Assembly: GCF_026151205.1 (NCBI RefSeq)
Contig: NC_087078.1
Span: forward strand, 16,013,118 to 16,077,117
DNA from: Bolinopsis microptera
Lineage: Eukaryota > Ctenophora > Tentaculata > Lobata > Bolinopsidae
DNA: 64,000 nt
Direction: 5' to 3'
Under the pieces are notes generated by a model. It was given only the letters and a program-made list of their open reading frames with translations, was not told where the DNA came from and searched no databases. The position numbers were made by a program, and so were the translations under genes. Below, one piece after another: positions 17,601 to 63,073 of the stretch. Position 1 is the stretch's first letter, and the number at the start of each line of letters is the position of its first letter.

Positions 17601-20600
17601 CTGTCCGCCGTATTGTCCGCCGTACTGTCCGGTACAGTCATGTACCCCATGGTATCAGGTACTACTTTACGGTTTTCAGCAAACTCAAGATGCAGGCTGA
17701 ATCCCCAAACCCAACTTTACTATATATTTTCAGTATGATCGTTTTATGAATTTTTGAGCCAATATCATGGTTTTCGAATAAAGCAATTAATTTAATTTGA
17801 TTAGTGTTGTTTGACATTCGGGATATAAAATCTTTTACAAAAATTAATTCCCCGTCTTTTATTTGCTTCATTACCTTACAAGACATTTTTGTGGCGGACC
17901 AATGTGCGACGACCGAAATTTTGGCGGTCCGAAAATATGGCGAAATTGAACAAAAACCGTCACATTTCGGACGTCACAGAAAATAAGGGTATTTTTCATC
18001 ATTTTGTTTTCTGACACAAAGGAAATTCAAAATTTTCTAAAAATCGGTAAAATCATGTTGAAACAAAATGAAACTTATAAATCGATTTCTTCATCTTCCT
18101 CTAAGGGGTCCGGCTCGAATCTTTCAGTTTCACTTATTGAGTTTGGTATTAAATTGTTTATCTTGACTTAGTCTATAAGACGTTTATGTTAGCACATAAA
18201 TGTAATTTATTGTAAATTTAAAACGTATAACTTGACATTAAATTCATCATGGAATATTGTGTTTATTTGTCCCACCATCATATCACTAACTTTTCAAGAA
18301 CAAAATGAATCGATGAAGCCACAATTGTCAATTATTGGAATAAGCTAAAAATAATGCGACGGATTCTATTACGACGACCGAAATTTTGGCGGTCCGAAAA
18401 TATGGCGAAATTTCGGGAAAACCGTCGCATTTCGTACGTTATAAAAATGTCTTGTAAGGTACACGATTATACGAATGCTCTTCCCTCCTAAATCTCGGAC
18501 AACCAGTAAATTTCCCGCTCCCAAATATTGACGAGTCACAACACCACATCCGACCACAACTCCTCCCTGTTCACTTGACATTAAATAACTCTTCACTCGC
18601 ACAATAAACAATTAAACCTGAATGTCGTGTGGTGTTTACCACCAGAGCATACAATAAGAAGCTTTAATAAGAGAGTCCAGATCATTTGTACAATGTTTGT
18701 ATCAGCAGGCTTAAAAGGCGGATACCAGTGGAGTTTGCCTCTCCGAAAGACGGCACAATGCCACAATTACGAAGGAGGAACATCGAGCAGCACTCGCTCA
18801 TTGGTTACTTACTAATTTAAAAAACTTTGTGAGGTTTTATTTTCGACCAAATCTTCCTGACAGACAGTTGTGATTTATTTAGTTGTGGTCAAAAGATCTC
18901 CTAGAAAATGAGGGTGCTGCTAGTTCTGCTGGTATGTGTGGTCGGTCTGGAAGGAGCAAAGCAACCAAAGCTTACAAACAACGAATATGAAGCGTTTGTT
19001 GGAGCCACTGATGAGGCCATTATTATGGACGACCCGGTGGCAATCAAAGCAAGGAAGATGAGCAAGCTTCTTAAAAGGCAAGATGTGGTCGCTAACTGCC
19101 GTTATCTCCTCTTCAAAGCATACAAGAACTACACGGACGCCAAAAGTTCATGCAGAAACCTGGAGTGGCCCTTCACCCACAAAGGTGTTGACCTGGCAAG
19201 TGTGAACAGCGAGGAGGAGAACAAGGAGATCAGGATCCTGCTGCAGCTAGCTCACGGTGTCAAACAGGTCGGGAAGCTCTACAACAGAGACAACTGGGTC
19301 TGGGTTGGGTTGGAGAAGACACTCAACAACAAGGTTCTGCTAGCTAAAGAAGAGCGAGGTCCCGAGAACTACAACGCCTCAGAATGGCAGTGGTTGGACG
19401 GTACCCACCCCAAGTACACCAAGTGGATGAGAGACATGCCGGACCAGGGATACAAGAAGAAATACGATGATTTCCAGAACCACGTCATGGTTAACAAGAG
19501 AGGCCGATGGGACGATACCTTCCCTGAGATTGAGGCACCCTACGCCTGCAATTACTGTGGAAAGTACATTGTGGTTGCAGAGCACGTGACCTGGTTCCAC
19601 GCCAAGTCTGCCTGCGAGTCCTACGGTCTGACCATGGCTATAGTGAACAGCATGGCTGAGAACATAGAGTTGGGCTGGGCTGCCAACATCACCTTCGGGT
19701 CGGACCCGGAACACAAGAGATGGAACAACACTAACTGGATCTGGCTGGGAACTGAGGAGATAATGGACGCGGAGGATCACGGAACTGGGGAGTGGATCCA
19801 CCATGATGGGAGCGAGCTGGGATGGAACCCCGTCTGGGACAGGAAACTACAACCGGACAACAGGGTCGCTAAGAGGGGAGAGCAGAAAGTGGTGGCATTC
19901 TCAAGGATCAACCAGAAGTGGGACGACTCTTTCACCTGGAGGAAACGACCTTTCGCTTGCATGTGCCCTCACAGGTCATGTCACTTCCCCGAATAGACGA
20001 GAAAGTGAAGAGTAGTGATGTTAGTGTACGAGGAGGAGGAGGTTAGAGGCACTGATGAACTACATTGTGAATTTTACTCTTTGAACACAACTATATTGTC
20101 GGTTAATTAATGGTCTAAAATTTTATTTGAAGAGTTTTAGAAAAATTTCTAGTGACGGCTCACCAATATTTGAATTCTTGAAAATGTCGCTAGCTGTATG
20201 CCTGCAAAAAATCTATCGTTTTCGATTTCTATGATACGAAATATGTATTGAAATTATTGTAACATGATAATATTGTGCTTTACGTTTTAGGATAGTTATG
20301 ATTTAGTATTTCATTTTGTGGATAAGAACAAACCCAGTGCACACTATTTTCAGTTAGTTCGAACCAAACGTTAAATTCGGCCATTAAAACACGAATACCT
20401 ACCGCAATTTATCAATAAAATCAGGGCGCCCTGTCCTCAAAGGACCCCATTCATCTTCATTATAATTCACGGTCAATCGAAAAATTACAGAGATTTTCAT
20501 TCCACGTAACGATGTGATAACATGATGATTATTCAGAAATAACACGTCTGATGACACGTCTGTGAGTCGTTGCTGATAAAACTGATATTAAAGAATGGGT

Positions 20601-26600: not shown

Positions 26601-29600
26601 TTACTTTAATTAGTTGATATTTTGGTTTTATTAATTAAGTTGTTGAGCAACTAATAAATGCTTTTCTTAACCTTTCTTATCCCAATATCATGCCACTTCT
26701 TTACTTCATTTCTGAACTTAAAATTTAACTTCTTTCAATCTAGACAATTTGTTTACACGCACATACAAACTAATTACACACTATACACTCTATTATTAAG
26801 ATCCTGTATACACATCATATTGTGGTAGTTGACTCGAAAAGCTAACGGCGAATGTGGGATTTTGAGTTGATTACTATTGATGTATCGTACGCAAGCAGAT
26901 TTCAATAATAAACTCTCAAGTGATTGTGAACCTTCGATCTGGTCAGGTTAGTATGAGGTGTTGTACAAAACTGAAAACAGGTTACACACGTTGTACGTGT
27001 TGATACTTAATCAGCGTGTGCAAGTGTGGGTAGTGGGTACTGGGTATGCTAAACACAAATTCATCTGGATACAAATCCTTGCGCCATGAGATACCTTTGT
27101 TTTATACTCATAGAATAATGCCCCATCTAGGAGGAGTTCGATGTCAAGCTCAAAGTTTCTTAGCCGGCTCTAGTGACTGTTTACAAGATTATGTTTAGAA
27201 GTTTATTAGCTTTTTTTGCTCACAAATTGCCATTTTGAACTCTGGTCGAATTTGTCTTGAATTTCGTAACCTTCTCCGCTTTTTACCTATTTCTAGGATA
27301 CAATCAGCACACAGTGATCAATTTCAAGGCTTGTTTCTTCATCGTGTATCTTTAGAAAAATATAATTCTGCATAGAGGACCCGAGCGTGATTCCATTTCA
27401 TTTCTTTCTAGTTTTAAAAAAAATGTTTATACGGTACCGATCGTAAGCTTTTCAGAGTAATGGAGCAGGCAAAATGTACTAGAATTTAAAGATGAGATGA
27501 GGACGGAAGATGAATGTATTTTGCCGGAATTTATAAATACAGAGATCAAGAAAGATGAAGATGATTTACATATCAAATCAGAAATGTATTCGAATCCTAC
27601 TTTGCAGATGCAGTATATAACAGAACCTCGTCCACACTATGATTCTACGGTTATCGCTGGAGACACATATAAATATGAAGGCCAAACATCACCACAAAAT
27701 GTACAAAACAATGCTCATTTAGAACTTAACCAAACTTTTGTTGCCGAAACAGAATGGATGAAAGTAACCCAAAATCAATTAGAATTCTCTGATACTGTTT
27801 GCAGTCCCAGCAAAACATCAACATTACCTTCCGATCAGCGATCTCATACCGGCGAGTGTTCCTACAGTGCAAGCAAAAAATCATCTTTATTTTTACATCA
27901 GAGGAGTCATACCGGTGAAAAACCGTATAAATGCTCTGAATGTTCCTTCAGTGCAAGCCAAAGATCATCTTTAGTTCGCCACCAGAGGATTCATATCGGT
28001 GAAAAACCGTATAAATGCTCTGAATGTTCCTTCAGTGCAAGCCAAAGATCATCTTTATTTTTACATAAAAGGATTCATACCGGTGAAAAACCGTATAAAT
28101 GCTCTGATTGTTCCTTCAGTGCAAGCCAAAGATCATCTTTAGTTCGCCACCAGAGGATTCATACCGGTGAAAAACCGTATAAATGCTCTGAATGTTCCTA
28201 CAGTGCAAGCCAAAAATCAAATTTATTTTTACATCAGAGGATTCATACCGGTGAAAAACCGTATAAATGCTCTGAGTGTTCTTACAGTGCAAGCTACAAA
28301 TCATCTTTATTTTTACATCAGAGGATTCATACCGGTGAAAAACCGTATAAATGCTCTGAGTGTTCCTACAGTGCAAGCCAAAAATCAAATTTTATTTTAC
28401 ATCAGAGGACTCATACCGGTGAAAAACCGTATAAATGCTCTGAATGTTCCTTCAGTGCAAGCCAAAGATCATCTTTAGTTCGCCACCAGAGGACTCATAC
28501 CGGTGAAAAACCGTATAAATGCTCTGAATGTTCCTACAGTGCAAGCCAAAGATCATCTTTAGTTCGCCACCAGAGGACTCATACCAGTGAAAAACTGTAT
28601 AAATGCTCTGAATGTTCCTACAGTGCAAGCCAAAAAACATCTTTATTTTTACATCAGAGGATTCATACCGGTGAAAAACCGTATAAATGTAATAGATGTT
28701 CCTACAGCGCAAGCCTAAAATCACCTTTAGTTCGCCACCAGAAGGTTCATGCCAGTAAAAAGCCAAACCAATCTTCTGAATGTTCTTATAGAGATAGCCA
28801 TGAGTCAAGGTTGGTTTCTAATCAGCGGAATGATATCGGAGAAAACTCACATACTTTTTATAAAAGTGGCCAGGCTTCCAATCCTCTACAAAACGATACT
28901 GTTGGAGGACCAATAATTTTCGTTAAGCCTCTACCTTTGACGAAGCTTCTAACATTTGCAAAGCCTCTGACCTTATTTAACCCCTTTCACCCCAGTTTCA
29001 GCTTACCTCCCAGTTCCTCCTTCAGTTATCAACCAGCATCTCAAATGTCTCACCCTGCAGCTCCTCTCACCTTCTCACCTGGTGAGTCTGTCTTCACACC
29101 TCCTCCCTCTGTCTCACCTACCTACTCTACAACAAATCCTCCCCCTCTCATATCTCCAGTCAGTACAGTGGTTACGGGGCGTAAATAACTGGAGCATATC
29201 GCTATTGAAATGTATGTAATATCAAACGCCGGGGGATCACTAGTTATAAGTTAACGTACAGTGATCACTGAGGTCATATCTTGTTCCTGAACAGCATTAT
29301 ATCATATATCAGTCAAGACTGAGATTGTTAACAAGTTCAAGTGACACTCAACTCCTACGCATCAAATGAATGGGATAAATAATTGGATTTTGCAAGTTTT
29401 CTTCTCTATCCATCCCGAAACCCGGAATTTGAAACTGACAAACATTCCTTTCTCCGATCCCGGCTCCCTTTGTCTATTTTGACATAGAAGTCTGAGCGGC
29501 GCGTGGCAGTGGGGTATTGTTTTGTTTGGTGTGAAATATTGTGAAGATATATTGTGTGAAGATATATTCTCTGTTGAAGATACGAACGATCAGTGGAAGA

Positions 29601-35600: not shown

Positions 35601-38600
35601 AGCGTCAAATTACGGCAATTATGTAATACATTTCTGAAATTGGAACCAACTCAGTTGTTTAGTCTAATGGGAGTAAATTAGATCATATTATTATTATTAT
35701 TTAAAACAAAGAAATAGCTTACAAAGTTTTCAGCAACAGTGAAACTCTGGTCACAGTTAATTATAGAAGGTTCATTATCGTTATCATCCAATACTCTCAA
35801 AATGAATTGAACTTCTCTAGATCGGACTGGGGTGCCGCTATCTTCGGCTCTGAGATGTTTTTGGTGATCATGAATCTGATGTTTCAAATGTTAGGAGATT
35901 CATGTTTTAAATTTAAGAAAGTGAAACTGTAACCTAGGGGAACACATTCCACAATGAAGTTAATAACTAGAGAAAGTCTCACTTGATTATAAGAGTGTAA
36001 GAGTCAGTCTCCTCTCTGTTTAACACTGCTTTAGTAACTATCTGCCCGATATCACCTTGTTTTACTGCGTACTCGAACCTATCACTGTACCCTCCCTCGA
36101 TTGTAACTGATATCTGTAACATGTATCTGTTACAAAATATACAGGTATCTGTTACGAGAGTGGATTTGTTAAATCTTACTCGTTGTGATAAACTATTATT
36201 TAAAATAAAGCTAACATAGTCCGACACGACAATTTAATCAAATTACAAAACAACCTTACAAACAAATCTTTTAAAATTCATAACCGAACCTTGGAATTGT
36301 CTCCAGAATCCTTGTCTGATATCTGAACTTTACACACAATACTTCCTATAGGGAGATTCTCCCTCAACTCCACTGTCTCACCGTTTGTAGGGGATAATAT
36401 CACCGGTCTGAAAATAAAATCAGTAAAATACAGATAATTATGGTGATAAACGACGATTCTGTAATGGCGCAAATCTGGTTGCAACCGTCTGAAGTTATTG
36501 TCAACTTATACTACACATTTCCGTCACATTATATCATGGATAAAGTAATAGGTCTCATTTCACTCTCATAATATCTGGGTTCTCATAAAGCTAAGTGAAT
36601 ATTTTCCGTATCAGTAAGCCAATAACGCATATCACCAGCATGCCCAGTACGTTTAGTGTAGCACATTGTACAGTTTTGCTTGTTTTATGTCTGCAGCTGG
36701 GAACAACCAAGAAACACCAGGACGATCAGAAAATAATGATAATCTTGATGAAGGAGCAGTATCACCACTGAAAATAGAACAGCCAGACAACGATATTGTT
36801 AATGAAGGAGCAACACCTCCACAGGATCTGCAGCTTAGAAGTGAAGAGAACCAAGAACCCACCATCCAGGTTCACAAGAGAGAATGTACACTAGCAACGG
36901 AGAGATTAGATAACTTTACATCAGTTCAGCCAGCAACAGAAGATGAAGCAAGAGATGGAGGAGAAGTAGGGGAAGGAGGTTCAATCCCCTCCTACAGACT
37001 GACAGTTCAAGAGTTCTTCACCCAGTCAGGGTTAGGAAAATTCCAGTATCTTCACGCCCTGTGTTTCGTCTTCGTCTTCATTAGAGATGGTATGGAGGTG
37101 ATCTACGCCGCCCTAATCAAACCCTCCCTTGCCTGTCTGTGGCAACTTAACACATTTGAGGGAGCCCTGATTCCGGCACTGCCTGCACTTACATACGCAG
37201 TAGGTTCTCAGGTTGCGGGTATAGCAGCTGATAAACTCGGGAGGAAACCGGTTCTACAGGTCTGTCTTGGTCTGTCTCTTACACTGGATATCGGGTGTGC
37301 CTTTTCAGAATCTTTCCTTGTGTTTATAATTCTTAGGGCGTCATCAGCCTTCTTTTTGGGCGGTGCTTTTGGGACGGTTCTGACTACATGGATTGAAATA
37401 GTCCCTAAAACAAAGAGGTTCAAATCTCTGTTTTACTTCGCTCTATTCTGGACAACCGGAACAGTTGTGGCTGTCGCTGATGGCTGGTTCATGGACAAAC
37501 ATGACCGACTAGACTATCACTTCTTTATCCTTGTTCTCTGCATCCCCTCACTGCTGGCTTTTGTATTTTCCTTCCTTGTGTACGAGACAGCAAGTTACTA
37601 TATAGCTGCAGGGAAGGTGGATAAAGCAGTTAAACTGATAAAGGAAGTGATAGAGATAAATAAGATGGAACCAGCATCTTACGATGTGCTCTGTGAGGGA
37701 ATGCACTACGACAGAGGTGCTGTTATCAAGCTCTTCCAGATGCCTTACGCTAAAGTTTCTCTCTGTTTCATGGCTATTTCATATTCTGTCGGTTGGACAT
37801 TTGGTGGGTGGACTGTTTTGATATCGAGCTTGTTTACCAACGAGTTCTGTACCTACAGGAGCATGTTTGCGTACTCCTCTGAGTACTGTAAAGCGCTGAC
37901 TGACGAAGCGTACCTTCTCATACTCTTAGCAGTGTTAGGCGGGTACCTGGGATACATCGCAGCTTACACCATTTCCAACAAAACAGGACCTATGAACTAT
38001 GTTTCAGTGACCTACTTCTGCGCGTTCTACCTGTTTGTTGTGTTGAACTTCTGCTTGCTCCCCTTCCCACTCTCCTACTACCTGTATTATCTGGAATTGT
38101 TTTCGACGCGCGCATTGTTGGGAGGTGGATATCTGATGTTGTGGCTTTACACTCCCGTCTACTATCACACACAAGTCAGAGCAGTGGGTGTTGGGTTGGG
38201 GATATGTAGCCTGAAGCTAGGGACAGCCAGTGCTGCGGTGCTGATCGCGTATCTTGATATGCCGTTTAAGTTGTATAGTTTCGCTGCGTTTTGTTTAGTA
38301 GTGATGTTCCTGGCGGTGGTGCTCAGCGAGCCACGCACACGGAAAATATTGTTTGCAGAAACTGACGCTGTGATAGAAACACGAGATCTGGATGAGCTCT
38401 ACAAACACCACCATGTTCCACCCTCAGATCTAGGCTGGCACATCCGGAACATACAGATCAAGGAGGGCCAGAACAAGAAGAAAGTAGCGCCGTTTGCTAA
38501 TGATCACAGTAGTACACACGGGCCTGATTTCAACTGGGTAGATTTAACACCCTCCGCAGCAACAACCACTACTAGTACCAAATCTCTCAAATACAGCTTC

Positions 38601-41600
38601 AGTGTGGATTCTTCCAGGACACCCGATGCGGAGCTGCCATTGAACGCATTCCGGGGACGGCAAGTGTACCGTGACGCATCAACACCCGGTAAACCAACAT
38701 TCAACTTTGACCGCTCTATCTATCCAATCAGAAAAGTAAAGAAAGTGAAGGATAAGGGAAAGTTCCACATTAGGCCCATGTCAGTAGCAGGGCTGGTAGA
38801 CGAGCGGACCTATATTCTAACCCCGACTGAAGTAAGGTCCGAGGGTAACACGCCGGATCCTAGTGCCGCACTGAGGGAGCGTGTTATTGTGAAGAGGACT
38901 GTTGTTGAGAGACCTCCGGAGCCGGTATATGAGAATGTGAAGAAGAGGACTCGTGGAAGAAGTTCAGGTAGTGAGAAGTAGAATGTGTTTGAAATCTTTT
39001 AACACTGATAATGACGTGCCAAAATAATTTGGATTATGCGTCTTACCACAGATTTCATTACAAATTAATAGTCTTTTGGTTTTCGATGTATGTAGTTTTA
39101 AAATGGCAGCGCCGTTATTAACATGATGTAAATATTTGTGGGTGGTATTAAAAACTAATTGAATTTCGAGATTTACTTTTAACATTTGTTAAGGAAATTA
39201 AAAAACCACCAAAATCCGCTTCCACACTGTCACTACATATTCATAACCAAACATTTGTAAACTAAATATCTAGATTCAAAACAACTAACTGGTTGTCGTT
39301 GACATCCAGCACAGCTACCACCACACTAACGCTACTCTTCCTGGAGACAGTACCACTGTCCTGAGCTTCCACTTGGAACGTGTAACTTGATACTGTTTCT
39401 CTGTCCAGCGCACGTGTTACTATTATATCGCCGTTATCCTGGGGCAATAAGTTAAATCAACTTGGCATTTAACAAATCGTTTAAGTAACTAAATAACAGC
39501 GCTATAAAAACAAGAGTAGTTTACAAATTTTCATTCGATTTGTGATCCTCAAAATTGAGTTTCTGCACTGGAAATGACCCTCAATTAAGTTCCTATAACG
39601 AAGGTCAACTCCAGTAAACACTAACAGTCGACTTACTCGCACAGCAAAAGGTAAGTTATCTCCCAGTAACGAGTACAGAACTTTGCCGTTATCCCCCGAG
39701 TCGGCGTCAATAGCCACCACTGTCAGCACTACTGTCTGTGTCCCTGCATCTTCTGCTACTGAATCAGTGTAGGAGGAGGATTCAAACTCTGGTCTGGGAG
39801 TGATGTTTGTTAAGTTTCTATGTACCGATCGGGAATAATTATTCTTGAGTCTGTGTTTGAAGACTGTACATTTCTTCTTATATTATTAATTATTTAGATC
39901 TTAAATAATTCAATGACTTATTCCATATTTAGCATAATACTCTTATTTATTTATACGGAGTACATAATATTCAGTCCATTATCCATCTATAAATATACCG
40001 CACAGAAATTACCCTTACTTTAAAAAACTATACATTTTTTCTTCATTTTCCATAGTTTCTCGCTAATATGCAGATGATTTGAGACTAAAGTTACTGTAGC
40101 GAATAATGGCTTTAGAATGTTTCACGTAACTGTTCGATACATATAATAATATTCTGACTCATTAAGTTAAACTTTGAACAATGACAAGCACAAAGTACAT
40201 TGTTGAAAAAGTGGGCATGCTAAACTCCTTCAGTCGCTGCTTGCTAACAACTTCTTAAATATAAAACTCTTTAAAACTCGGTTAAGTTGCATAAGTCCCA
40301 TTTAATCAAAACCAATCAGTTTGAGTGGTGTTTGTTTGTTAGACAGTATGGCGAGGAGGACAAGTAGATGAGCTTCTCAACCTCATTAAGTAGATGAGCT
40401 TCTCAACCTCATTAAGATCATGAGACTGGTAACCTTTTACTTATCTCCTAATTTTACTGAGCTTCTTACTGTTGTACCACATAACCACATTTAACGTTTA
40501 AAATGCACATAAAATATATTCTACTAGTTAAAACTCCTGATGCATCTCGTGTACTCATGAGAAATTTCCAGAAACATTCCACGAAATCCACACATTTTGT
40601 CCCACGAATAATATTTGGACTGCAGCAGTAGAATAACAGCATGCATGACAGGAGCGGAAGATGTAGAGTGCAGTGTAAACACGACTTCTGGCTCTACAAT
40701 GGGGGAGATACTGCACAGCTTATCGACTTGCAACAATGTGGAGAATGGGAAATATGCGGGGCATTGTTAACAAGATCATGGTAATTGTGTTATGATACAT
40801 TTATATCGTGAGAAGTTGTTTTCTTAACTACACTCAATTACACTTCATGAGCAGTGGGCTGCATTCTATGAATCATATAAATTCAGCTTTAGATCAAAGA
40901 CATAATATGAATATAAAATGCACATTAAATGTACAACATGTGCTTTAAAACGCCTAGTAATTTGAACCAATTAAGAAGCCCTCACTTGTGATCATTAATG
41001 TCGTTAACAGTGACGGTTAACACCAGGGTGTCTGACTTATCATCTTTGTCGTAGGCTCTGATATTCAGCACAAAAGACTTGTCTCCCGTGTCGTAGTCCA
41101 GTTCCTGTGAAGATCACAGTTTAAATCAGATTCTGAGGGTTTAGATTCAGAGAGTAGTGGGGAGTGAGGGTTGGTAATCTGGAGGAAATGGAGATATGTG
41201 GTCTAGTAGAAATGGAGAATGTGGCTGCATACTGTGTGTTGGATACTCAAGATGTCTAAAGAAGGGTGAATAAGAATGTATAATTTTAAGGGTTGATGAA
41301 AGTGTACCTTGATAATTTTAAGCGAAAGTGGTAAAGTGCCCCCTGACCATGTTCCAGTAACGATCTCGAACTTATCTGTGTCTGTCGTCAACTCATATCC
41401 CGATACACTGAAAAGAAATGTACATTCATAGATACAAATCACTTAGTTTAACTTCCAGTTTTCAGACCAATTACTCGTTACAATATCGATAAAGTGAAAT
41501 TTTAAGCCGAAGGAAATTCAGTATCTTCCCGTATTAACTATATTCGCACCAACTATTATCAAAACCTATCAAACAAGTCATACAGCTTGACACAAATCAA

Positions 41601-44414: not shown

Positions 44415-44989
44415 GTGATAGACTACTTAGTAATATTACGCCTACTTAGGCATAAACACAATTATTATCCATAAAATTTGCAATATTATATAAAACTAGA
44501 AAACCCGTGGTCATAGGGAGGAAGCTAATAGTATTTTTTGTTAGTAAGTTTTTCTCGCATCAAAAAATATCCGTCACAACCAAAGATACAGCCGATTTAA
44601 ATGTTGCTTGTACTAAACACAGCGTAATATCAACAAAACCGATCAAAATGACGTTAAAACAATCATTGCACGTGCACGTGCGTGTAACAATTCTCGTTAC
44701 TATGGTTACTTTGCAACCTTTTTCTTTTTTACCTAATTTGCACGTGGGCGGTCGTACATACATACATTCTACAGAAACAATTCTCTGAATTATAGTAGAG
44801 ATAAGCCGAAATAAGTTATAGAGTTCATTCTGTAACTGACTTCATATTAAAAATTGACTATGTCCATAACTCGAGTATTTTCGTTCACCCTATCTGCATT
44901 TTCCATGACGGAAACAAACAAATCCTGGACTTCCTGGGCATCTTTACAATTATTGTCTTCGTCACAGCAGCAAGTTTTTTTTTTAAAAA

Positions 44990-47004
44990 AACAAGGTTAC
45001 AAGATAGTGCGGGTGATGCTAAAAAGACTTATTCCATCGTTAATAAGTTGCTCAATAAAGAAAAAGTTAGTACTACTACACCTTCTTGCTCTTCAAATCT
45101 TGAGAGTGCTAATAACTTTGCACAGTTCTTTAAATCAAAGGTCGACAACATATACAACAACATTTATTTAGAACAACAATCCCAAGATTCTCCTAACTCA
45201 GATGAATTTGTTCCTCTTTCTAATAGCCCAAAGATAGTACAATTCCGTCATGTGTCTGATGAAGAACTAGTAAGCATCATAAAGAATATGTCAAACAAAT
45301 TCTGTGATCTTGACCCCATACCTACAAAGATTCTCATCAAGTGTCTCCCAGAACTCCTTCCTCTGATCTCATTTATAGTCAATGAATCATTAGTTAAAGG
45401 TGAGTTTCCTATAAAACTTAAGGAGGCTCTCATTCGTCCAAGTTTGAAGAAACGTGGCCTTGACGGTGAATCTCTATCTAACTATAGGCCTATTAGCAAT
45501 CTCTCATTCTTGTCAAAAATCATTGAGAAGTGTGTATCTATACAGCTCACCAGTTATCTTGAGGATAACAACTTGCTTTCTAAAGTTCAGTCCGGCTATA
45601 GGAAGTTTCATAGCTGTGAAACTGCAACAACCAGAATCCATAACGACATCTTGATAACTATTGACAAGAAAACTAAAGTTGTTCTTTTACTTCTAGATTT
45701 GAGTGCTGCCTTTGATACTGTCAATCACCCAAGATTAATCAAGAAGCTAAGATCTGCTTATGGCATTACAGGCATTGCTCTTACATGGATCAGGTCCTAC
45801 TTGGCTAACCGTTCATTTTGTGTCAAAGTCAAGGATTCGTCTTCCTCAGCAACTGTTCTTGAGATAGGTGTGCCACAAGGTTCAATCCTTGGCCCCCTGC
45901 TATTCATATTGTACACCAAAGATCTTGAGAACATTGCAAGTATGCATGGGTGCTGTATTCATTTGTATGCTGATGACACCCAGCTGTATTTCACTCTTGA
46001 TTCTGATGACCCATCACAGCTAGAGCACAATATGGAACACTGTATGTCTGATATCAAGAAATGGATGACAAACAATTTCCTTCAACTGAATTCTTCTAAG
46101 ACTGAAGTCATCGTTATATCCTCTAAATTTGACTCACAAAATATTCCAGCCTCTCTACAGATTGTTAAGGATCAAGAGCCACATGTTGTTAGTGGAACTG
46201 TGAAGAGTCTTGGGCTGTATTTGGACAGTTATCTTTCAATGAGTGATCAGATTACGTCAGTGGTTCAAGCATGTAATATTCAGATCAGAAATTTGTGGTT
46301 TATTGCATCAAAACTGTCTTTTAACCTTAAGATTCAGCTTGTTCATGCTCTAGTACTCTCTAGAATTGATTATTGCAATAGCGTATATTTTGGACTGAGC
46401 TCTTATGATTTAAGTCGTTTACAGAAGGTGCAAAATTCTGCTGTAAGATTTATTTTCGGGAGAGGAAGAAAGGCACACACTACTCCACTACTTAAGAAAG
46501 TTCATTTTCTACCAGTTAGATTTAGAATAGATTTTAAGATTGCCCTACTTGCCTACAAGTGTTTAAATAATATAGCTCCTCCTTACTTAAAAGAGTTGAT
46601 ATCTCCTAGGCAGCAAAGTTTTAAAAATGTACGTCTTGATAATGATTATTTTTACCTTAGTTTTCCGCCCTCTCCTAACTATGTAAACACAGAGAAAGCT
46701 TTTAGTCACTGTGCAGTTAAAGTATTTAATTCCTTGCCATACGACATAAGATCAGCTGAGTCAGTTACATCTTTCAAGACCAAACTTAAAACATACTTCT
46801 TTTCTCTAGCATTTGATTGATTTTGCATTTACATAGGTAAAATGAACTTGTCATGTCTAATTTTCAATTAAACTAAGCTCAGTTAATGTAAGAGCCGCTT
46901 TAGAAAGCACTGGAGTTTATCTCCAGGATTAAACTATATCGAGTTATATGATTTAGCTATAAGGCGGTTTATAAATGTTGTATTTATTATTATTTATTTT
47001 ATTA
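44990..47004 (+). mobile_element. 5'-truncated CR1/L2-type LINE with intact reverse transcriptase
   Basis: An open frame of about 600 codons (from about 45,000 to 46820) encodes a non-LTR reverse transcriptase: NYRPISNLSFLSKIIEK, LLDLSAAFDTVNH, GVPQGSILGPLLF and the catalytic LYADD box, then the QNSAVRF ... LPVRFRIDFKI ... APPYLKEL C-terminal region typical of CR1/L2-type elements. No endonuclease domain is present, so the copy is 5'-truncated; a T-run/A-run near 44,975-44,990 marks the approximate edge. The 3' end is a short UTR finishing in a TTATTATT-type tail near 47,003. There are no internal stops, so the insertion is fairly recent. It abuts the pseudogene on the other strand. Confidence 0.88.
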
Positions 47005-53265: not shown

Positions 53266-56200
53266 ATGAAGAAGTGGGCTTTTTGCTCTTTTCTATTCAT
53301 CTTAGGAGCTTCTGCTCAGGAACCTCAACCAGGTCAGTTTAATTTTAGATCAGAAAATCAAAATTCAAATACTGCAGATTTGTGTTAAAAGCATGTAATA
53401 ACTTATGTGGAGGACACCCCGGTTCGTGCTCCGTAAGACGAGTAAAGCTTATGATCAATTATTTGCTTGTAGGCACGGAAGAACTTAGCTCCGACCAAAA
53501 TTATCACCGTCTTATATGTGCTTTTAGGGTATGTATTCATTATATACAATTTAGAGATAACAATAACTAATAAATTTCATCCCAGCTGCCACAATAACAC
53601 CCACCACGGAGATAGTGTACGCGGTTGAAGAGCACGTGATTAGATGTGAAATTACTGGTATCCCCAGACAAGTCAATGGTGTCCGTTGGAGACCTGCACA
53701 GCAGAGGATAATAGGATATAATCTAAATGATGGAACTTTCGATCGGAAAACGAAGTCTCAAGTTTCCAGGCTGAGGATATCAGCTGCAAAACTGGTCGAA
53801 CTGAGAAACAGTACGCGCGAACATACCTTCACGTGCAGTTTCGATATTGGTAACACTAAATTTAGTGCTAACAAAATCATCACTATCTTTAATCCGAGTA
53901 AGAAACTCAGTTTTAATTTATCCTTTTTTTCTTCTTTATGTTTATCGCCTATTTTCATATAAAATCATATTTTCATTGATTGAACGTTTCGTGGTTCGGT
54001 GAAGTAAAAACGGATTCGTGTTTTGAGTGATTTTTAGTGGTCCAGTTCGGGATCAGGAAACAAAATTAAGCCGAATTTGTTTCCGTGGTAAGATGTTGTA
54101 ATATTTCAATAATACCTTTAGCCAGGGTTTGTTCAATAGCACAAAATATTTGGTTAGATTCAGTTCGGAATAAAATGAGTGGTTCGGTTGAACGTGCGAT
54201 TCAGTCGTTTGCTAAATACCCTTCAAATTATTTTGACAACATTGAATCATTTCCCAACATAATTGTATTAACTCAAATACATTCCCAGGTGTGAGAATAC
54301 ACACAGCTACAGAGAATGTATATGCTACCAAATCCCATTCCATAAACTGTCACTTGGATGATCATCCTAACAAAGTAACTGGCGTGCAGTGGCCTCCTGC
54401 AACAGGAGATACAAATGGATACTCTTTTGACGATGGCATTTTCTATGAAATTGAACTCCCCCTTCAATACCATCAAACTCCAATTCTGACGATATCAGCT
54501 GCCAAACTTGTTGAGCTGAGAACTTCTGCTGCTTCACACACTTTTACGTGCAAGATTGTTGTTGGTTCCACCAAAATACCGGTTACTGCTACTCAAACCA
54601 TTACCATCTTCAACCCTGGTATGTGAATTCAAATTTATTTACATTTTGTTTATTTATTAACAGTTGATATCATCATTGATGGCGAAATTTGAATAAAAAT
54701 TCAACTATATTCTTAAATCAAAAACGGACTGACCAAAAGTTTAAAAATAGACTGCTTTGAATTGATTTAAATCTTATTTCAGGTTTATCAATAGGTCCGT
54801 GGATGCAGAATGTGTATACCACGTACAATCATATCATCAGTTGTATGTTGTCCGACATCACTGAAGAATATATTTTCTTATGGACTCCTCAACGGTATTG
54901 GGATTCAGGAATTACTTTGTCGAATGGAACTTTCGATTCGACTTCGAGCTCTCAAGTGTCCACGATGACGATATCGCCTGTTAGTTTGAGAGATTTCCAG
55001 AGCTACTCCAATCCACAAACTTTCAGATGCAGTGTTACAATAAACGATACTGATTTAATCACTGCTAGCCAAGTTATCACTTTCTTTAATCCAAGTAAGA
55101 AAATATAGACAATTTTAATAATCAGTCGTCAGTCACTGCCAAATTCCAATGGACGTTTAAGCTGTTTTAGTCACAGAAATTCAAAAAAGACTTAAAAGGC
55201 GTTTATAAAACCACACATTTACCTCCATGGGAACCTTTAAACAAACGAATACAATTTCAGCTGCAATTATAACGTCAAATACGTCAAACGCGTACATTAT
55301 GGAAGATCTTGTCATAAAGTGTAGACTGTCTGGTATCTTTGGCCAAATAACTGGTGTACTCTGGAACCCTGCAGTAGAGACACCCAAAGAGTATATTTTG
55401 ACGGACGGAACTTTCGATTCTAAAACCAATTCCCAACAGTCCACGTTAACGATAACAGCGTCAAAACTTGCCTTACTTAAATCTGATCAGGCGATATGGA
55501 GATTCACTTGCGAGTTCGTGGTGGATCCTGATTCTAAAAAATCAGTACAGGCAACTGAATCTGTCGCTATCTTCAATCCATGTAAGATTATTCCAGATTA
55601 TTTTGACTTTATTGTTGTAATTATTTGATATATAGCACTCTTTGCATAATAAATAAAAGACAATCTGTCAAAAATGTATGAATTCTGTTCATTATGATTA
55701 AGGTAAGGCAAAAGGACTGTTTATCAGAAACCCAGAAAATTGGCAAGTTATCGACAGGCTTATAATGAGTAAAAATTGATGGTCAATAAAGGTTGGATAA
55801 TGTTATAACAATTCTTATATCGCGTGTTTTTCAATTGGAAGCTTTAAGAGAATGTATAATACCGAATCACCATTGTCATTGCAACATGATACTCACCATT
55901 TAGCTTATGTAGCTGGTCGGCCGTTCTTTAATTTTGCTTTTAGTGAGCGACAAATGATAGTAACCATTAATAATAATTATCAAAAATATGCTCATAAAAA
56001 TACATTTATCACGTATTTAAATGTAATTGACTATTTCAGCTGTTACGATAACGCTCAGTTCTGATACTGTATATACAGTGAAAGACTTTAAAATAACTTG
56101 CACTTTGAACGATGTCTCATATGCAATGGCTGAAACTCTGCTTTGGACTACAACACCAATAAAAGAACCATCCAAGTTAATAACATTAGATGGATTTACT

Positions 56201-59200
56201 GCAGATCTTGTGAAGAACGGATCCTACGTGTCCATCCTGACAGTCCCAGCTGACGAGCTTAGTGCCGCTTCACACATGTTTACTTGTCAGATAACCGTTG
56301 GTTCCAGCAACACGATAATTTCCGATACCAAATTTATCACCATGATTGATCCAAGTAAGAAAATTGGTTTTGATAGATCGACCATAATGTTATTGTTAAT
56401 CAGCTGAACATGATCTTCAGTATATTTGCTCAGTTTTTTTCTTTTAGTCGAAAAGATCAAACAGAATCAATAGAAATTTACCCAAGAAAACAGAATCATA
56501 GCGATCCCAAACAATACATGCCAAGTTTCACAACCTTATGCTCTCATAAAGAAATCATTACAGTCAAATGTCACAAAATTGTCTTTCTGATGCGCCCACA
56601 GCAGCTATAAAAGTTCCCATGATTGATTTCAGTTTCTTCTTCACGTGTAATTTCGACTACAGATAATTCACAATTAAATTTAACATCTGTTATCGGCATG
56701 CAAAATGTTCAGGGCAGGTCATGTAAGAAATGTTTTATCACATAGAAAATTCATTCAAACAATTCATTAATATTTCCTATATTTCAGTATCATCGCTTTC
56801 TTCTTTCGACATAGAAAGTGAAAAAGTCATTAAGCATACACGCAGTGAAGGTTTGCTCTCGCTGTCGTACGGGGACTCGGATGGTAAAGAAATGATGGGA
56901 ACTGTTTGTGGTGATTTCAACTTTGACATGTCAGACGAATTTTGCATGAAATTTGGTTATCAATATGGAGAATGGGGAAAAAGTAGATATCGAAAGCAAT
57001 ATGCTACTCAACAGTAAGTAATATGCTACTCAGCAGTAAGTAATATGCTACTCAACAGTAAGTGATATGCTACTCAACAGTAAGTTATATGCTACTCAAC
57101 AGTAACTGTAAGTAATATGCTACTCAGCAGTAAGTTATATGCTACTCAAGAGTAAGTAATATGCAACTCAACAGTAAATTATATGCAACTCAACAGTAAG
57201 TAATATGCTACTCAACAGTAAGTAATATGCTACTCAACAGTAAGTAATATGCTACTCAACAGTAAGTAATATGCTACTCAACAGTAAGTAATATGCTACT
57301 CAACAGTAAGCAATATGCTACAGGCTACTCAACAGTAAGCAACAGGTTGGGCAGGTTGGGCAGAACCATGAGCGGTGAGCCTCAATAAGCTTACGTCGTA
57401 GTACTCACTAGTAGACTTCAATGGAGTTTAATCTAATATTCCCTTCTAAACCTAATGCCATGATTTTGCTATACTGTTTCAGTTTACTAAACTCACTAAT
57501 TTACTCAGGACGGTTCTTAACGATCAAGATTATCAAATCCTGCAATGCAATATGACCGGTTCTGGCACGATATTCTGCAAAGAGCTATCATCTGATTTGC
57601 AAACTTGTAGCCACGGTGATGATATTTGGTTACAATGCGCAAATTCGACAGGTAAAATATGATAATTTCATTGTTTGACAATTTTGTTAATTTGCTCAGA
57701 GACGGGTAATCAGTAAGTAATCTAGCCTCAAAATTAAGTTGTTCTTAATCTGAGAATCCTTCAATGCTCAAGTTTAAAAATCATTGAGTAATTTACCTTA
57801 TCCCTATAAAATCCCAAATGATTGACTATTAGTTTCACTTCTTACCGTTATTATCCGTTATTATAGAAATTAAAAGTTTGATCGCAGATACGGAAAGATG
57901 GCGAGTTGACGGCAAGTGTGGTCCGGATTATCCTTTACGGGATGGAAGTGCATCCGAATGTGATCCTTCCGGAGAGGACCCTTGCTGTAACCAAGATGAT
58001 CAATCTTGTGGAAACACTCAAAATTACTGTACATGCGAAAGATGTATTGATTACAGAACACAAGTACAAGAAGAGGGGTGTAAGATATCAGAGGTGGGCA
58101 GGTTTCTCAAAAACTTTTGTTTCACTAAAATTCTCAAGGAGCATTACAAGTGTCTCCATTCCGATGTAGTTTACAAAGAGGAGTTAGGAACATGGGATCA
58201 GGATCTCGGTGGGGCCACGCTGTCCAGTGTTACAGATGTGTGTGAAAATGATCCGTTTGTTTACCAAGCTTGTGGCTTCAACACTCCCATCAGCAACAGT
58301 GAGGTTCTTTGCAACGGATTCTTTTGTCCAGATGAAGAAACTACCCAGAGAAATCACAAATATACTGATTTCGCCGGAGAAAAGACTTGTGGGGACACTA
58401 CCAAAGTTGAATCTGAAGAAGATACCTCGGAGGTTTGTGATGGTAAGTGTGACACTGCTAACACTTGTGCTGATGAAAGTGAGTGTAATGGAGAGATTTA
58501 TGGATTGAAATGTGATAAATCAGAGAATGAAACAAGCTACATCCCTGTACACTGGATATGTAATGGAAATCCAGGATGTGAAGATGGAGCGGATGAAAGC
58601 AGGTGTGAGGTTCCAAATGAAAAGGAAGTAAAAACCTGCATGCATTACTACGGTAATTTAATTTTGGGGAAAGACATCATAGTGCCCATCTTGAATTTCA
58701 CGAGATGTGCTGTTTTCGACATAGCCAACGGAGTCTACCCTTATTGTTTGGATTTCATGGACCAAACCAACTGTACAGATGTCCAACGGGTCGGAGGAAA
58801 GTGCAATGTCAACAACATGTTGACAAGAATCTCTATGAGTATGGTTTGTTACAATCATAAACTTTGTGATGATAATATTGAAAATGTGTGTGAATCCCCT
58901 TCCAGTCTGACGAATTGCAAGGTCCACCGACACAGGATGTGTGATGGTGTGAATGACTGTGACGACGGCAGTGATGAACTTCATGACGACTGTAAACTTA
59001 CCGCTGAAAGCTTCCAGTGTAAAAGAAGATTTGGCATCGATAAAGAAATGAGCCTTCCACTAGCTTGGACTATGGACGGTATAGAAGACTGTATAAATGG
59101 GTATGACGAGAATCAGGATGAGTGGAAACGATGTGGAAATGAGACAAAGAAAACTCTTCGATGGATCCATAATAAAAAAGGTGACGAAAAAAATTACTGT

Positions 59201-61279
59201 AATGACGTTTTCCTATGCTCAAAGGGAAACACGACTTTTGTGAGCCTTGATATTGTGTGCGACGGTGTTGAATCCTGCGGGGCGAGTCTTGAGAACCAAA
59301 TCTGCAGAATTTCCAGAGACTTTCCTAACATCAGAAGGATTCCATTAGTTAGTGACAAAGTTGCAGAATTGTGTGCTGAAACGGACTCGAAAGAATGTGA
59401 GCAGAAGGATTTCATAGGACCAGCAGGCCCAACCTTTGGAGTTTCTAAAACTCTTAATGTTCCGAAGACTAAGGTCGACTGCAATGGCTTGTTTGGAGAG
59501 TTATATGTCTACCTCAGCTGCATGAACCTCTGTATAAACTCCACTTGCCCACTATCAGAAACTCCTGTGAAGTACGATGAGTGCCCCGGTCAGTACCCTG
59601 ATCGCGTGTACTCTTTAGCAAACAACAAAGATCTCACCTTCGTCACCAAATCTGATACACAAAATTATCAGAGCAACAAATTTCAGTGCAACAACTCACG
59701 TTGCGTGGATTACAGCCAGGTTTGTGATCTCACAAATGACTGTGGTGACATGTCTGACGAAATAAATTGCAAGAATAATGTTCGCTGCCTTGATGATACA
59801 AATCATCTCATTTCCCTGGACCAGCAGTGTGATGGCATGTTCGATTGCTTCGACTTAAGTGATGAGTGCAATCTAAAATGTAAGAAGCAGATTCTCGAGA
59901 ACTGGTTTCTGAAAGCGATTTGTTGGATAATGGGTGTCCTTGCTACCATATTCAACTCTGTACTCATTGTTCAAACAGTTTCATCTTTCAGAGCAATAGA
60001 GACAGGAAACATGCTCCAAACCAAGGTTCTTGTGACTCTGATCGCCATAGGAGACTTGCTGAATGGTGTTTACTTAGTTGTTATGTCTGTTTACGATAGC
60101 TTTGTATTCGGACATGACTACTGCACATATCAAGTGCAATGGCTGTCAGGCACAGCATGTGCCCTGTTAGGGGTGATCAGCACTATGGGATCTCAGCTGT
60201 CGTTATTCGCCATGACAGTTCTCAGTCTTACCAGAGTCATTGGACTTACTTGCAGCTCTATGACCGCTCCTTCAGTCGTGAACAAGAAAATAAAAGTTAA
60301 AATCGTCGCATTGGTGACATCAATTTTGGCTTTGTCTGCAGCTGTAGCATTGGTTCCTCTAGCACCTTCCTTGGAAGATTACTTTGTGCAAGGCTTATAC
60401 TACGAGCCGGAAAACAAAGTATTCATTGGTTTTCCAAATAAAGAGAAGCATGTCAAAGTCCTGAGAGTCTACGAAAGTGATCCAGAATTACCCATGGACA
60501 TGAAGTGGAGTCTTATTCACGAGAAGGTAAAAGAAATGTTTACCAATGACTACAAAACACTCAGCTGGAAAACAATACATTTCTACGGAAATGACGGTGT
60601 GTGTTTGTTTAAATTCTTCGTTCGAAGTGACGATGCTCGAAGAAGCAGACAAACGCTTGACATCAAAACAGGGGTCCTCGATTACATTGATTTCCAGGGG
60701 AATCTTATGTTATGGATCATGCTGGTAATCAATATTGTCTGTTTCATGATAATGACCGTATCATACGTATTGATAACAATCCAGACATGGAAATCTTCGT
60801 CTGAATCAGGTCAAAACAAAAACGTTCACGCTGTTCGACAAAACAAGAAAGTTCAGCTCAGGATAACATTGATAATCGCGACTGACTTTCTCTGTTGGGT
60901 GCCTTTCATCATTGTCTGTACTCTCCATAACCTACAGCTGATTGATGCGACAAAATGGTACACATACTTTGCGATGATAGTGCTCCCGATAAACTCAGTG
61001 ATAAATCCCCTGCTTTATGACAACACAGTAACAGGGTTATTTGGAACGTTTTTCAAACGTTCAGGCTCTCTCCTTAACTCAACAGTAATTACATCTGTCC
61101 GTAGAGCATCTCTTACAGTCACTTCTCAGCAGCAGGGAGAAAGCATTCGTCTTGATGCTATTCAGCATTCAGCCCTTCGTTACAAAGTCAAACTGCATCC
61201 AGCTGATGAGATCCATCATAACCCTTCAACACCAATTGTTGCAATTCATCCAGACGATCCAGCAATGAGCAAAGTATGA
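53266..61279 (+). CDS. Chimeric receptor: five Ig-like domains, SRCR, Cys-rich module, LDLa repeats and class-A 7TM
   Basis: A 9-exon gene, 5,439 nt joined, 1,812 aa. Signal peptide at 1-17. Five Ig-like domains (23-553), each with C, W and a distal FTC/FRC cysteine plus DGTFD-like and L-x-IS motifs. SRCR domain (553-676) with six cysteines (TVCGDF, SHGDDIWLQC). A RWR-DGKCG Cys-rich module (685-739). LDLa-type SDE/DES repeats near 865, 907, 1033, 1297 and 1329 in a Cys-rich ectodomain. A 7TM (1353-1727) with N in TM1, D in TM2, CWVP at 1685-1688 and NPLLY at 1722-1726; the LPINSVINP form is typical of the LGR/relaxin/GRL101 group. The D/ERY position reads TRV. The last exon holds the Cys-rich module, LDLa and 7TM. 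A signalling receptor for a surface or secreted ligand is inferred. AATAAA at 61308 and 61324. Confidence 0.92.
53266..61279 (+). other. Exon map of the Ig/SRCR/LDLa receptor gene
   Basis: Exon 1 53266-53332 (signal peptide); 2 53586-53897 (Ig1); 3 54289-54618 (Ig2); 4 54783-55094 (Ig3); 5 55261-55581 (Ig4); 6 56040-56354 (Ig5); 7 56788-57013 (SRCR first part); 8 57509-57651 (SRCR second part); 9 57867-61279. Exons 2-6 all start and end in phase 1, so any of them can be skipped or duplicated without changing the frame. Exon 7 ends in phase 2 at CA|GTAAGT and exon 8 starts with the G that completes CAG (Gln). All junctions are GT-AG with matching phase. Introns are 164-495 bp. Confidence 0.9.
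57001..57345 (+). repeat. 22-bp minisatellite made of copies of an exon end plus splice donor
   Basis: About 15 tandem units of mostly 22 bp. The first unit overlaps the last 13 nt of exon 7 of the receptor gene and its donor (CA|GTAAGT at 57012-57019). Almost every later unit repeats the same exon end followed by GTAAGT, with variants GTAAAT and GTAAGC and one unit with 6 extra bases. The codon after the first donor is TAA in the exon frame, so use of any downstream donor would add a stop codon. Confidence 0.95.
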
Positions 61280-61307: not shown

Positions 61308-61329
61308 AATAAAACAAATGTTTAATAAA
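61308..61329 (+). terminator. Polyadenylation signals of the receptor gene
   Basis: AATAAA at 61308-61313 and 61324-61329, 29-50 nt after the stop codon of the Ig/SRCR/LDLa receptor. Confidence 0.6.
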
Positions 61330-61624: not shown

Positions 61625-61681
61625 GTGCACGCGAAGCGTGCACTCCGGCCGGAGGCGGCGGCCGAAGGCCGCCGCCTCCGG
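61625..61681. repeat. Two adjacent perfect GC-rich hairpins with GAA loops
   Basis: Hairpin 1: GTGCACGC-GAA-GCGTGCAC (61625-61643). Hairpin 2: 15-bp stem CCGGAGGCGGCGGCC, loop GAA, inverse stem (61649-61681). The palindrome CTCCGGCCGGAG (61643-61654) bridges them. Strikingly GC-rich in an AT-rich background. Confidence 0.95.
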
Positions 61682-63073
61682 CAGGAGTTTTCCAGGCATT
61701 AAGACTCATCGGAAGTCGTTAAGCAGAATTATTTTTAGTTCAAAACATTCTAATTTGATGTCAAAGATGACAGGAATAAAAAATAGTTATGTTGAGATTT
61801 TTAAGAAATTTGCATAAAATACTCGCCAGCACTGTTATACGAAATTCGGTAAAAAACCCAAAATCGCCATATTCAGGTGCCTTAAAAACCATGTTAAAAT
61901 TGAGTTAGAGATCTGAAATTTTTCAGGGCGTCTAGACGTTGATCAAATCGACTGCAAAAAAAAGTTTCAGGTTTCAGGAGTATCGGGAAATGGGTTTTCT
62001 AGAACCCCTGTTTTACGACAGATTGTCGTGATATATATATACATACATATTCAGGGATAGACGCTTTGCCAGTCAATTGTAGCCTGTATTTAATTGTCCA
62101 TAGATTCAAAAGTATAAAAGATAAAGCCATTTCCGACCACAGGTCTTGCGAATAATTGTTTACACTTTAGTTTACATTGTATAAAAAAATTATTTGACGT
62201 CATAAACACCCCTTGATGACGTCATCAAGTTAACCGTTTTTAAAACTTGATTTTTGACAAAGTAATAACTTTTAAAATTAATTTTAAACCATTAAGGAGT
62301 AATTTTATTCAAAATCTGAGGAGATTTTCATCTTAGATAATTGTTCAAGCATTCTGAAAATCTACCGGAAAGTTTTTCTAGCTTGCTCCTTCATAAAGAT
62401 ATTCGTCATTGAAGTTTGTGCTTTTTTGAAGAATTATTTTATAAAAACGTCAATTTTGCGATTTAGTATTCTCTGGTGTTGGGCCATGCCTTGAGTTGAG
62501 GAGCTCAGTTCTGCTTTCTATAGGTATAAATTGTGCATTAGGCTAGTTTTGAAGTTGAAAATCGAAAAGTTGCACACGTGGGGACACGCCCAAATTGATA
62601 GAAAATTGCTAAAATCACTGAAAATTGCTGTTTTCGTCATTTTCTGTCAACTTTAGAGTGCCATTGTGATTACAGTTCTTCTTGAAATACTTTAAAACTT
62701 TGCATGCTTATCAAGCTATATATAAAACAATTACATGAAAAAATTTACGGCGATTCAATATTGGATGCGCACGCAACGTCCGCTCAAAGTTTGCACGTGC
62801 GAAAGGTGAGAATTTTGCTCATTCGTGATTTCCAACAAATTCTGCTTTGCCACGACAGTTTAATGTCATTATATATGAATTTAATGCCAACTTGAATGAG
62901 TATTAGGTGGCATATTCAGTCAGTGATCGACCGATATGCTTACCTAAACACAAGGAAATGTTTTTAAAGGAAAATTTCGAAATCGTTGAAACTTCCTCCT
63001 TATTAATTAATGAAGATATCAGTTTATATTTCGACTTTATAAAGTACCCTGACATTATAATCAAAAAGAGATG

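Follow-up and report, generated by a model that had tools for sequence, protein, structure and literature searches.

Receptors that join LDLa modules to a seven-transmembrane (7TM) core of the LGR type are already known. The LDLa module is described as essential for activation of the relaxin receptor RXFP1 (PMC4837482), and GRL101 is presented as an LGR that carries multiple LDLa domains (PMC4079206). SRCR repeats have been reported from the sponge adhesion GPCRs Aq712029 and Aq715659, and Ig domains likewise appear in the legend for the sponge adhesion GPCRs (PMC4302439). The amphioxus VCBPs are given as immune-type molecules composed of two V-type domains and a chitin-binding domain (PMC2632668), and Trp53 and Trp55 of the hevein-like chitin-binding domain of amphioxus BbtPGRP3 are reported to bind chitin (PMC4610682). 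A count of 55 SRCR genes is given for the ctenophore Mnemiopsis, in which SRCR occurs in new combinations with other domains, Ig and LDL among them; the same source reports ctenophores including Mnemiopsis as being without TLR-like and MyD88-like proteins (PMC11797021).

The locus described here lies in a stretch of 64,000 nucleotides (the window) of contig NC_087078.1 of the ctenophore Bolinopsis microptera. Its 7TM core resembles RXFP1, TSHR, FSHR, LHCGR and LGR4 by sequence and fold, and its LDLa modules recall RXFP1. Unlike the relaxin and glycoprotein-hormone receptors and the LGRs, however, it has no LRR match, possesses an Ig array, an SRCR domain and a hevein-like module, and has Thr-Arg-Val in the position of E/DRY. 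Like the GRL101-type receptors described in PMC4079206, it places several LDLa repeats in front of an LGR-type 7TM; it differs from them in the lack of an LRR match and in the additional Ig, SRCR and hevein-like modules. The sponge receptors in PMC4302439 are 7TM receptors with N-terminal SRCR too, but theirs is an adhesion-family 7TM, whereas the core in the window is of the class A LGR type with no GPS/GAIN or 7tm_2 match. With the VCBPs (PMC2632668) the protein shares the combination of Ig-type domains with a chitin-binding-type domain, yet it is a 7TM receptor and its hevein-like domain has no aromatic site. The Mnemiopsis SRCR repertoire is similar in combining SRCR with Ig and LDL; in the legend of PMC11797021, the text on which this comparison is based, 7TM, GPS and HormR are explained after panel d (CTLD) and not in the list for panel c (SRCR); an SRCR-7TM protein may still be part of that repertoire. 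A literature search found no report of Ig, SRCR and a hevein-like module on an LGR-type class A core, but this search was limited and is weak evidence of absence.

Exon structure of the locus

Nine exons with GT/AG splice sites and matching phases yield 1,812 codons in the translation of the window (Table 1); borders and frame agree with the nine-exon joining given in the preliminary description. A leader scan returned a hydrophobic leader candidate at exon 1. The open frame of exon 9 comprises 1,148 aa, in which the first Met does not occur before residue 258. The units of the minisatellite are repeats of the exon 7 donor region, and reading beyond the first donor meets a stop. Counted from base 61270, the two AATAAA hexamers are found at offsets 38 and 54.

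Table 1. Positions of exons, modules and other features in the window.
Feature	Position	Strand	Description and support
Exon 1	53266..53332	+	Start codon and signal-peptide-like leader (MKKWAFCSFLFILGASAQ...), phase-1 end; translation, GT donor
Exon 2, Ig-like domain 1	53586..53897	+	Phase 1-1; AlphaFold pLDDT 90, Ig fold matches
Exon 3, Ig-like domain 2	54289..54618	+	Phase 1-1; 48% identity with Ig1, splice phase
Exon 4, Ig-like domain 3	54783..55094	+	Phase 1-1; 34% identity with Ig1, splice phase
Exon 5, Ig-like domain 4	55261..55581	+	Phase 1-1; 44% identity with Ig1, splice phase
Exon 6, Ig-like domain 5	56040..56354	+	Phase 1-1; 32% identity with Ig1, splice phase
Exon 7, SRCR first half	56788..57013	+	Phase 1 to 2; Pfam SRCR under cutoff, paralogue phases
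22-bp minisatellite	56994..57321	+	Grown from exon 7/intron 7 junction
Exon 8, SRCR second half	57509..57651	+	Phase 2 to 1; Pfam SRCR under cutoff, paralogue phases
Exon 9, hevein-like module, Cys-rich/LDLa region, 7TM and C-tail in a single exon	57867..61279	+	
Hevein-like (chitin-binding-type) module (RWR module)	57896..58057	+	Match to amphioxus PGRP3
LDLa-type repeats with Cys-rich spacers	58448..59869	+	Pfam LDLa, 4 stretches
LDLa pieces	58448-58606, 58889-58993, 59207-59305, 59681-59770, 59780-59869	+	By eye, cysteine/SDE pattern
Class A seven-transmembrane core	59906..61018	+	Pfam 7tm_1, PDB sequence matches, fold search
Long extracellular loop 2	60374-60677		
Two AATAAA poly(A)-signal-like hexamers	61308..61329	+	Closely 3' of stop codon

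Ectodomain modules and 7TM core

Judged by predicted fold, the five Ig domains are real yet missed by Pfam. In the alignment of exons 2-6, C20, W34 and C83 are invariant and form the C-W-C core of the Ig fold, while no Pfam Ig profile exceeded its cutoff and only one of the five exons matched any (13.8 bits versus 30). The best fold matches of the exon 2 model include the neural adhesion Ig domains of Dscam, NCAM and DIP-theta; shark VNAR and T-cell-receptor V domains come out at a similar level. A database search gave the Ig protein P0121 as its sole match.

The SRCR domain is divergent: joined exons 7-8 score 20.0 bits against PF00530, under the cutoff of 26.1, with no other family matched, and PDB sequence searches returned no significant match that is an SRCR. 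The joined exons contain six cysteines, a pattern that we take to be of the group A type. The profile searches proposed in the preliminary description gave matches below cutoff for one Ig exon and for SRCR, and it is the fold and the C-W-C core that bear out its Ig assignment.

The Cys-rich RWR module of that description is present but is ruled out as a new domain. It matches the solved amphioxus PGRP3 (4zxm) at E 2.1e-13, has the hevein cysteine framework and shares with BbtPGRP3 the module start RWRxDGxCG, which marks it as hevein-like and kin to the PGRP3 chitin-binding domain. In contrast to BbtPGRP3 (Trp53/Trp55 in PMC4610682), the alignment places no aromatic residue at either of the two chitin-contacting Trp places. 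The aromatic chitin site is absent from all hevein-like modules of the clade to which the gene belongs (0/10), which makes glycan binding by this module doubtful and rules out a chitin sensor acting through it. Elsewhere in the family, 90 of 130 hevein-like modules carry some aromatic at this site; the full canonical motif is rare family-wide (5/140).

LDLa (PF00057) scores 41.1 bits on the whole protein, and no Pfam family was matched in the Cys-rich spacers between its pieces. The 7TM core reaches 42.3 bits against 7tm_1 (curated cutoff 30.5). The exon 9 model (mean pLDDT 68.7) shows seven long helices and a short eighth, and the core includes CWVP and NPLLY, corresponding to CWxP and NPxxY. 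W1010, P1012, N1046, P1047 and the retained TM3-loop2 cysteine pair C764/C912 (exon 9 numbering) are invariant in 50 aligned rows of the family, and Y1050 and the TM3 Arg789 nearly so. Instead of E/DRY, TM3 reads LTRV, and the acid is absent from the consensus of the same alignment. All 18 PDB sequence matches of the core at E<=1e-4 belong to the LGR group, as do the top 30 VIA rows of a fold search that barely tested the exon 9 model outside residues 648-1063. By sequence and modelled fold, the core is consequently of class A and nearest to LGR, relaxin and glycoprotein-hormone receptors, a kinship that had been proposed beforehand together with the LDLa repeats and on which PDB and fold searches concur.

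At E<=1, Pfam matched 7tm_1 and LDLa alone on the whole protein. No LRR family was found, which rules out an LGR in the strict sense, and the lack of GAIN/GPS and 7tm_2 matches likewise rules out an adhesion GPCR. The stretch before TM1 aligns weakly with LGR4 (E 0.048), for which reason we make no claim of a tethered agonist.

A ctenophore family with SRCR and hevein-like modules

The genome, assigned to a ctenophore by its database relatives, contains at least 41 loci of the exon 9 type with the same core, including the one in the window. SRCR matches lie upstream of 18/41, again including the window's own, with 0 in two control placements, and the gene is therefore no lone oddity. The phases of exon 7 are available at ten first-half SRCR exons of eight other loci; among second-half exons, ten at eight other loci have a phase-1 donor, and six of these ten have a phase-2 acceptor candidate. 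These splice sites were chosen from candidates, and several second halves are weak (E 0.003 to 0.9). Of the three closest paralogues, two yielded no SRCR in the scanned flanks: C7:13886719, where the match is partial, and C7:13722393, where it is broken. We conclude from the recurrence of SRCR and of the same-phase splice sites that exons 7-9 belong together and that the combination of SRCR with an LGR-type 7TM is shared within the family rather than unique to this gene. In this family, two-exon SRCR and/or hevein-like modules stand before an LDLa-7TM core in one large exon. The Mnemiopsis gene model P0013 also carries SRCR and LDLa-7TM, although SRCR is not listed in a Pfam scan of the whole model.

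An HMM search for Ig exons in 10 kb of 5' flank at each of 10/41 loci (L010-L019; L020-L023 were left out) returned none at E<=0.01; up to E 20, the best value was 0.13, in L016. An exon scanner applied to six of these ten flanks gave 0/6. Judging from the flanks scanned and from the database search that matched P0121 only, the Ig array is perhaps peculiar to the gene in the window. The architecture that initially appeared unfamiliar may thus be so in its Ig array, while its combination of SRCR with LDLa-7TM recurs.

Competing readings and their meaning

We interpret the locus, with a probability of about 0.6, as a single, complete ctenophore gene that encodes a cell-surface recognition receptor. 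Reading frame, module identities (SRCR under the Pfam cutoff) and family membership were shown by computation; G-protein signalling and a ligand we infer. The order would be signal peptide, five Ig domains, SRCR, a degenerate hevein-like module, LDLa repeats and a class A 7TM of the LGR/relaxin-receptor kind. The outer modules would bind a macromolecular ligand, be it a microbial surface, a glycan or a partner protein. As in the receptors for relaxin and glycoprotein hormones, binding may move the LDLa/Cys-rich linker relative to the 7TM. The 7TM retains NPxxY, CWxP, the TM3 Arg and the TM3-loop2 cysteine pair and would signal through a G protein. Shuffling of phase-1 exons would then alter the choice of ligand, with the signalling exon staying constant.

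It is unlikely that exons 1-6 form a separate gene for an Ig-array protein, adjoining one for an SRCR-hevein-LDLa-7TM receptor (exons 7-9), and that the two seem joined only through their shared use of phase-1 borders. Such borders are common in extracellular modules, Ig exons are absent from the scanned flanks of L010-L019, and Mnemiopsis P0013 begins at its SRCR; in paralogue L010 an in-frame hydrophobic leader candidate runs directly into the SRCR exon, so that an SRCR-first gene can stand alone. However, the 433 bp between exons 6 and 7 open with a GTAAGA donor and close with a pyrimidine-AG acceptor, the in-frame stretch before exon 7 (EMFYHIENSFKQFINISYIS) is unlike a signal peptide, and over 5 kb 5' of exon 7 the scan, which detects only leaders ending at a phase-1 donor, found none nearer than exon 1. 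Paralogue comparison did not contribute to our joining of the Ig exons to exon 7, for which the grounds are phase, spacing and the requirement for a leader. That the Ig and SRCR parts fall outside those domain families is highly improbable, even if the whole protein has no Pfam match to either at E<=1.

Other readings accept the single gene but differ in its role. The Ig array might bind a cell-surface protein, homophilically or heterophilically, with the 7TM reporting contact and no sensing of microbes. The neural adhesion domains among the Ig1 fold matches and the loss of the hevein aromatic site in the clade are consistent with such a self/partner recognition or adhesion receptor; we nevertheless regard it as somewhat improbable, as the Ig fold says little on the partner, and the SRCR and hevein-like modules of the family would point to surface or glycan recognition. 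A hormone or peptide receptor like those of relaxin or GRL101, in which the N-terminal modules merely capture or present a secreted ligand, seems rather doubtful to us as well: at least 41 loci in one genome and the varying outer modules would exceed the expected need of a hormone system, and Pfam (E<=1) detected no LRR, which in LGRs binds the hormone, despite the LGR/relaxin-like core and the role of LDLa in RXFP1 activation.

It is possible, and we suggest this tentatively, that ctenophores have a large putative immune-type repertoire of class A GPCRs, in which SRCR, hevein-like and, here, Ig modules are shuffled as phase-1 cassettes onto a constant LGR-type signalling exon, and which would take on, via G proteins, the role that Toll-like receptors have elsewhere. 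Should the ectodomain bind microbial or self ligands, this would represent expanded G-protein-linked recognition in a lineage reported to be without bona fide TLRs. Domain swaps offer a direct test of ligand specificity, since the phase-1 modules can be exchanged while the signalling exon stays constant, and with so many related genes a G-protein route for sensing external molecules is likewise open to direct test. As a separate observation, a viral-contig scan returned one locus, L001, which matches exon 9 residues 352-668 at 36%.

Gene structure of the receptor

The receptor reads, in order, a leader, five Ig domains, an SRCR domain in two halves, and a final exon holding a hevein-like module, LDLa repeats and a class-A 7TM domain, and it belongs to a family of loci with the same LDLa-7TM core. 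The gene model is sound, the modules are real and the core is of a known kind. As the preliminary description had claimed, all nine exons join in matching phase, giving 1,812 codons, here followed by a stop. Their GT donors and AG acceptors are listed in the table. Exon 1, by its look, encodes a signal peptide, and at the 3' end AATAAA begins 29 bases after the stop codon. The residues of exon 9 before 258 contain no Met, so that a hevein-LDLa-7TM protein cannot start inside this exon. Reading through beyond exon 8 meets a stop right after GKI; a secreted Ig-SRCR form might therefore possibly arise through intron retention.

The five Ig exons are all of phase 1-1 and share 30-48% pairwise identity and an invariant C-W-C core, with third codon positions the most divergent in all ten pairwise comparisons.

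A 22-bp minisatellite (56994-57321, 14.6 copies by TRF) begins within the 3' end of exon 7. Its units are copies of the splice-donor region of that exon, GTAAGT occurring 12 times in 56994-57340, and reading beyond the first donor meets an immediate TAA. Just 3' of the gene, a short GC-rich stretch with inverted repeats was seen by eye (61625-61690).

Receptor exons and neighbouring open frames, in window coordinates
Feature	Position	Strand	Remarks
Exon 1	53266-53332	+	GT donor
Exon 2	53586-53897	+	AG acceptor, GT donor
Exon 3	54289-54618	+	AG acceptor, GT donor
Exon 4	54783-55094	+	AG acceptor, GT donor
Exon 5	55261-55581	+	AG acceptor, GT donor
Exon 6	56040-56354	+	AG acceptor, GT donor
Exon 7	56788-57013	+	AG acceptor, GT donor
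Exon 8	57509-57651	+	AG acceptor, GT donor
Exon 9	57867-61279	+	AG acceptor
Three similar tandem C-type lectin open frames	11536-12759, 15741-16916, 18905-19996	+	Pfam Lectin_C
C2H2 zinc-finger open frame	27461-29188	+	84-bp tandem finger array, 10.4 copies, 89% matches
Sugar/MFS transporter-like open frame	36657-38981	+	774 aa
Reverse-transcriptase open frame	44805-46820	+	RVT_1; likely a non-LTR retroelement

The LDLa-7TM family and its outer modules

A database search with the LDLa-7TM region scored 7,962 candidates, of which 1,083 proteins matched at E<=0.001; among the 120 matches listed, the organism is named for four (three Mnemiopsis leidyi, one Bolinopsis microptera), which makes a ctenophore the most likely source of the window. 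In a tree of 121 rows, built by a quick method, the receptor groups with the database protein P0001, to which it is 92% identical. Both fall within a clade of 15 rows (SH-aLRT 100), together with the SRCR-bearing Mnemiopsis protein P0013.

In the assembly that contains the window (264.65 Mb; window coordinates G000:C7:16013118-16077117), exon 9 gave 45 matches. These were grouped by hand into at least 41 loci after removal of four second pieces of loci already listed; with only 41 out of 812 first-look candidates scored, the count is a lower bound. Some loci are partial and three have internal stops. A decayed copy with several internal stops lies on the same chromosome as the receptor (C7:13722393-13725521, minus strand).

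SRCR matches in this assembly numbered 65 at E<=1. Of the 41 loci, 18, among them the receptor's own, have such matches on the same strand at most 12 kb upstream; these account for 28 of the matches, and the other 37 lie elsewhere. Two control placements within that distance of the 41 loci, upstream in the opposite orientation and downstream in the same orientation, gave no match. Two further loci (C4:9409135 and C4:9442982) carry SRCR in their flanks by HMM. At eight other loci, with splice sites selected from candidates, all ten SRCR first-half exons have a phase-1 acceptor and phase-2 donor available. Several of the second-half exons are weak (E 0.003 to 0.9); a phase-1 donor is available in 10/10 of them and a phase-2 acceptor candidate in 6/10.

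The hevein-like module gave 107 matches at E<=0.001, is held by 23 separate open frames of more than 1,000 aa by our own count over the match list, and was found by hand comparison at five of the 18 SRCR-bearing loci. Eight such modules occur in the relative P0101 and nine in the relative P0079. Seven stand in tandem in one open frame at another family locus (L019, G000:C1:16920200-16930199). In the Mnemiopsis family member P0021, the approximately 180 residues ahead of the hevein module (before residue 183) are neither SRCR nor hevein by profile, which implies that the outer modules vary further. Ig exons were found neither by HMM in ten paralogue flanks nor by an exon-pattern scan of six; as a positive control, this scanner recovered four of the window's five Ig exons. 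Among complete paralogues, the nearest one (C7:4895281, 59%) carries both SRCR and hevein, but the 8 kb read ahead of its SRCR show no Ig of that type.

Proposed assembly and comparison with known receptors

The modules and their order, the exon phases and the family are established by the analysis. In the proposed assembly, Ig and SRCR modules entered as phase-1 cassettes, behind a leader exon of phase 1 and ahead of a signalling exon that stays constant. These outer modules would bind a macromolecule, the LDLa/Cys-rich linker would relay this binding to the LGR-type 7TM domain, and a G protein would presumably act downstream.

The ectodomain combination appears to be new, and no description of its family was found in the literature covered; a limited search judged by titles likewise found none of the receptor architecture. 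As far as the portions consulted go, Mnemiopsis has 55 SRCR genes in novel combinations and no bona fide TLR among its immune genes (PMC11797021), ctenophore GPCR clades radiated independently (PMC13231562), LGRs including GRL101 are covered (PMC4079206), choanoflagellate rhodopsins carry additional LRR and LDLa domains (Table 1 of PMC12716839), sponge adhesion GPCRs carry SRCR (PMC4302439), and SRCR companion domains include 7tm_2 (Table 1 of PMC10855680). Parts of papers on VCBPs (PMC2632668) and of PMC8242945, PMC4610682, PMC5119243, PMC11184263 and PMC4837482 were also consulted.

Among the neighbouring open frames, those of the C-type lectins sit at least 33 kb upstream of the receptor gene.
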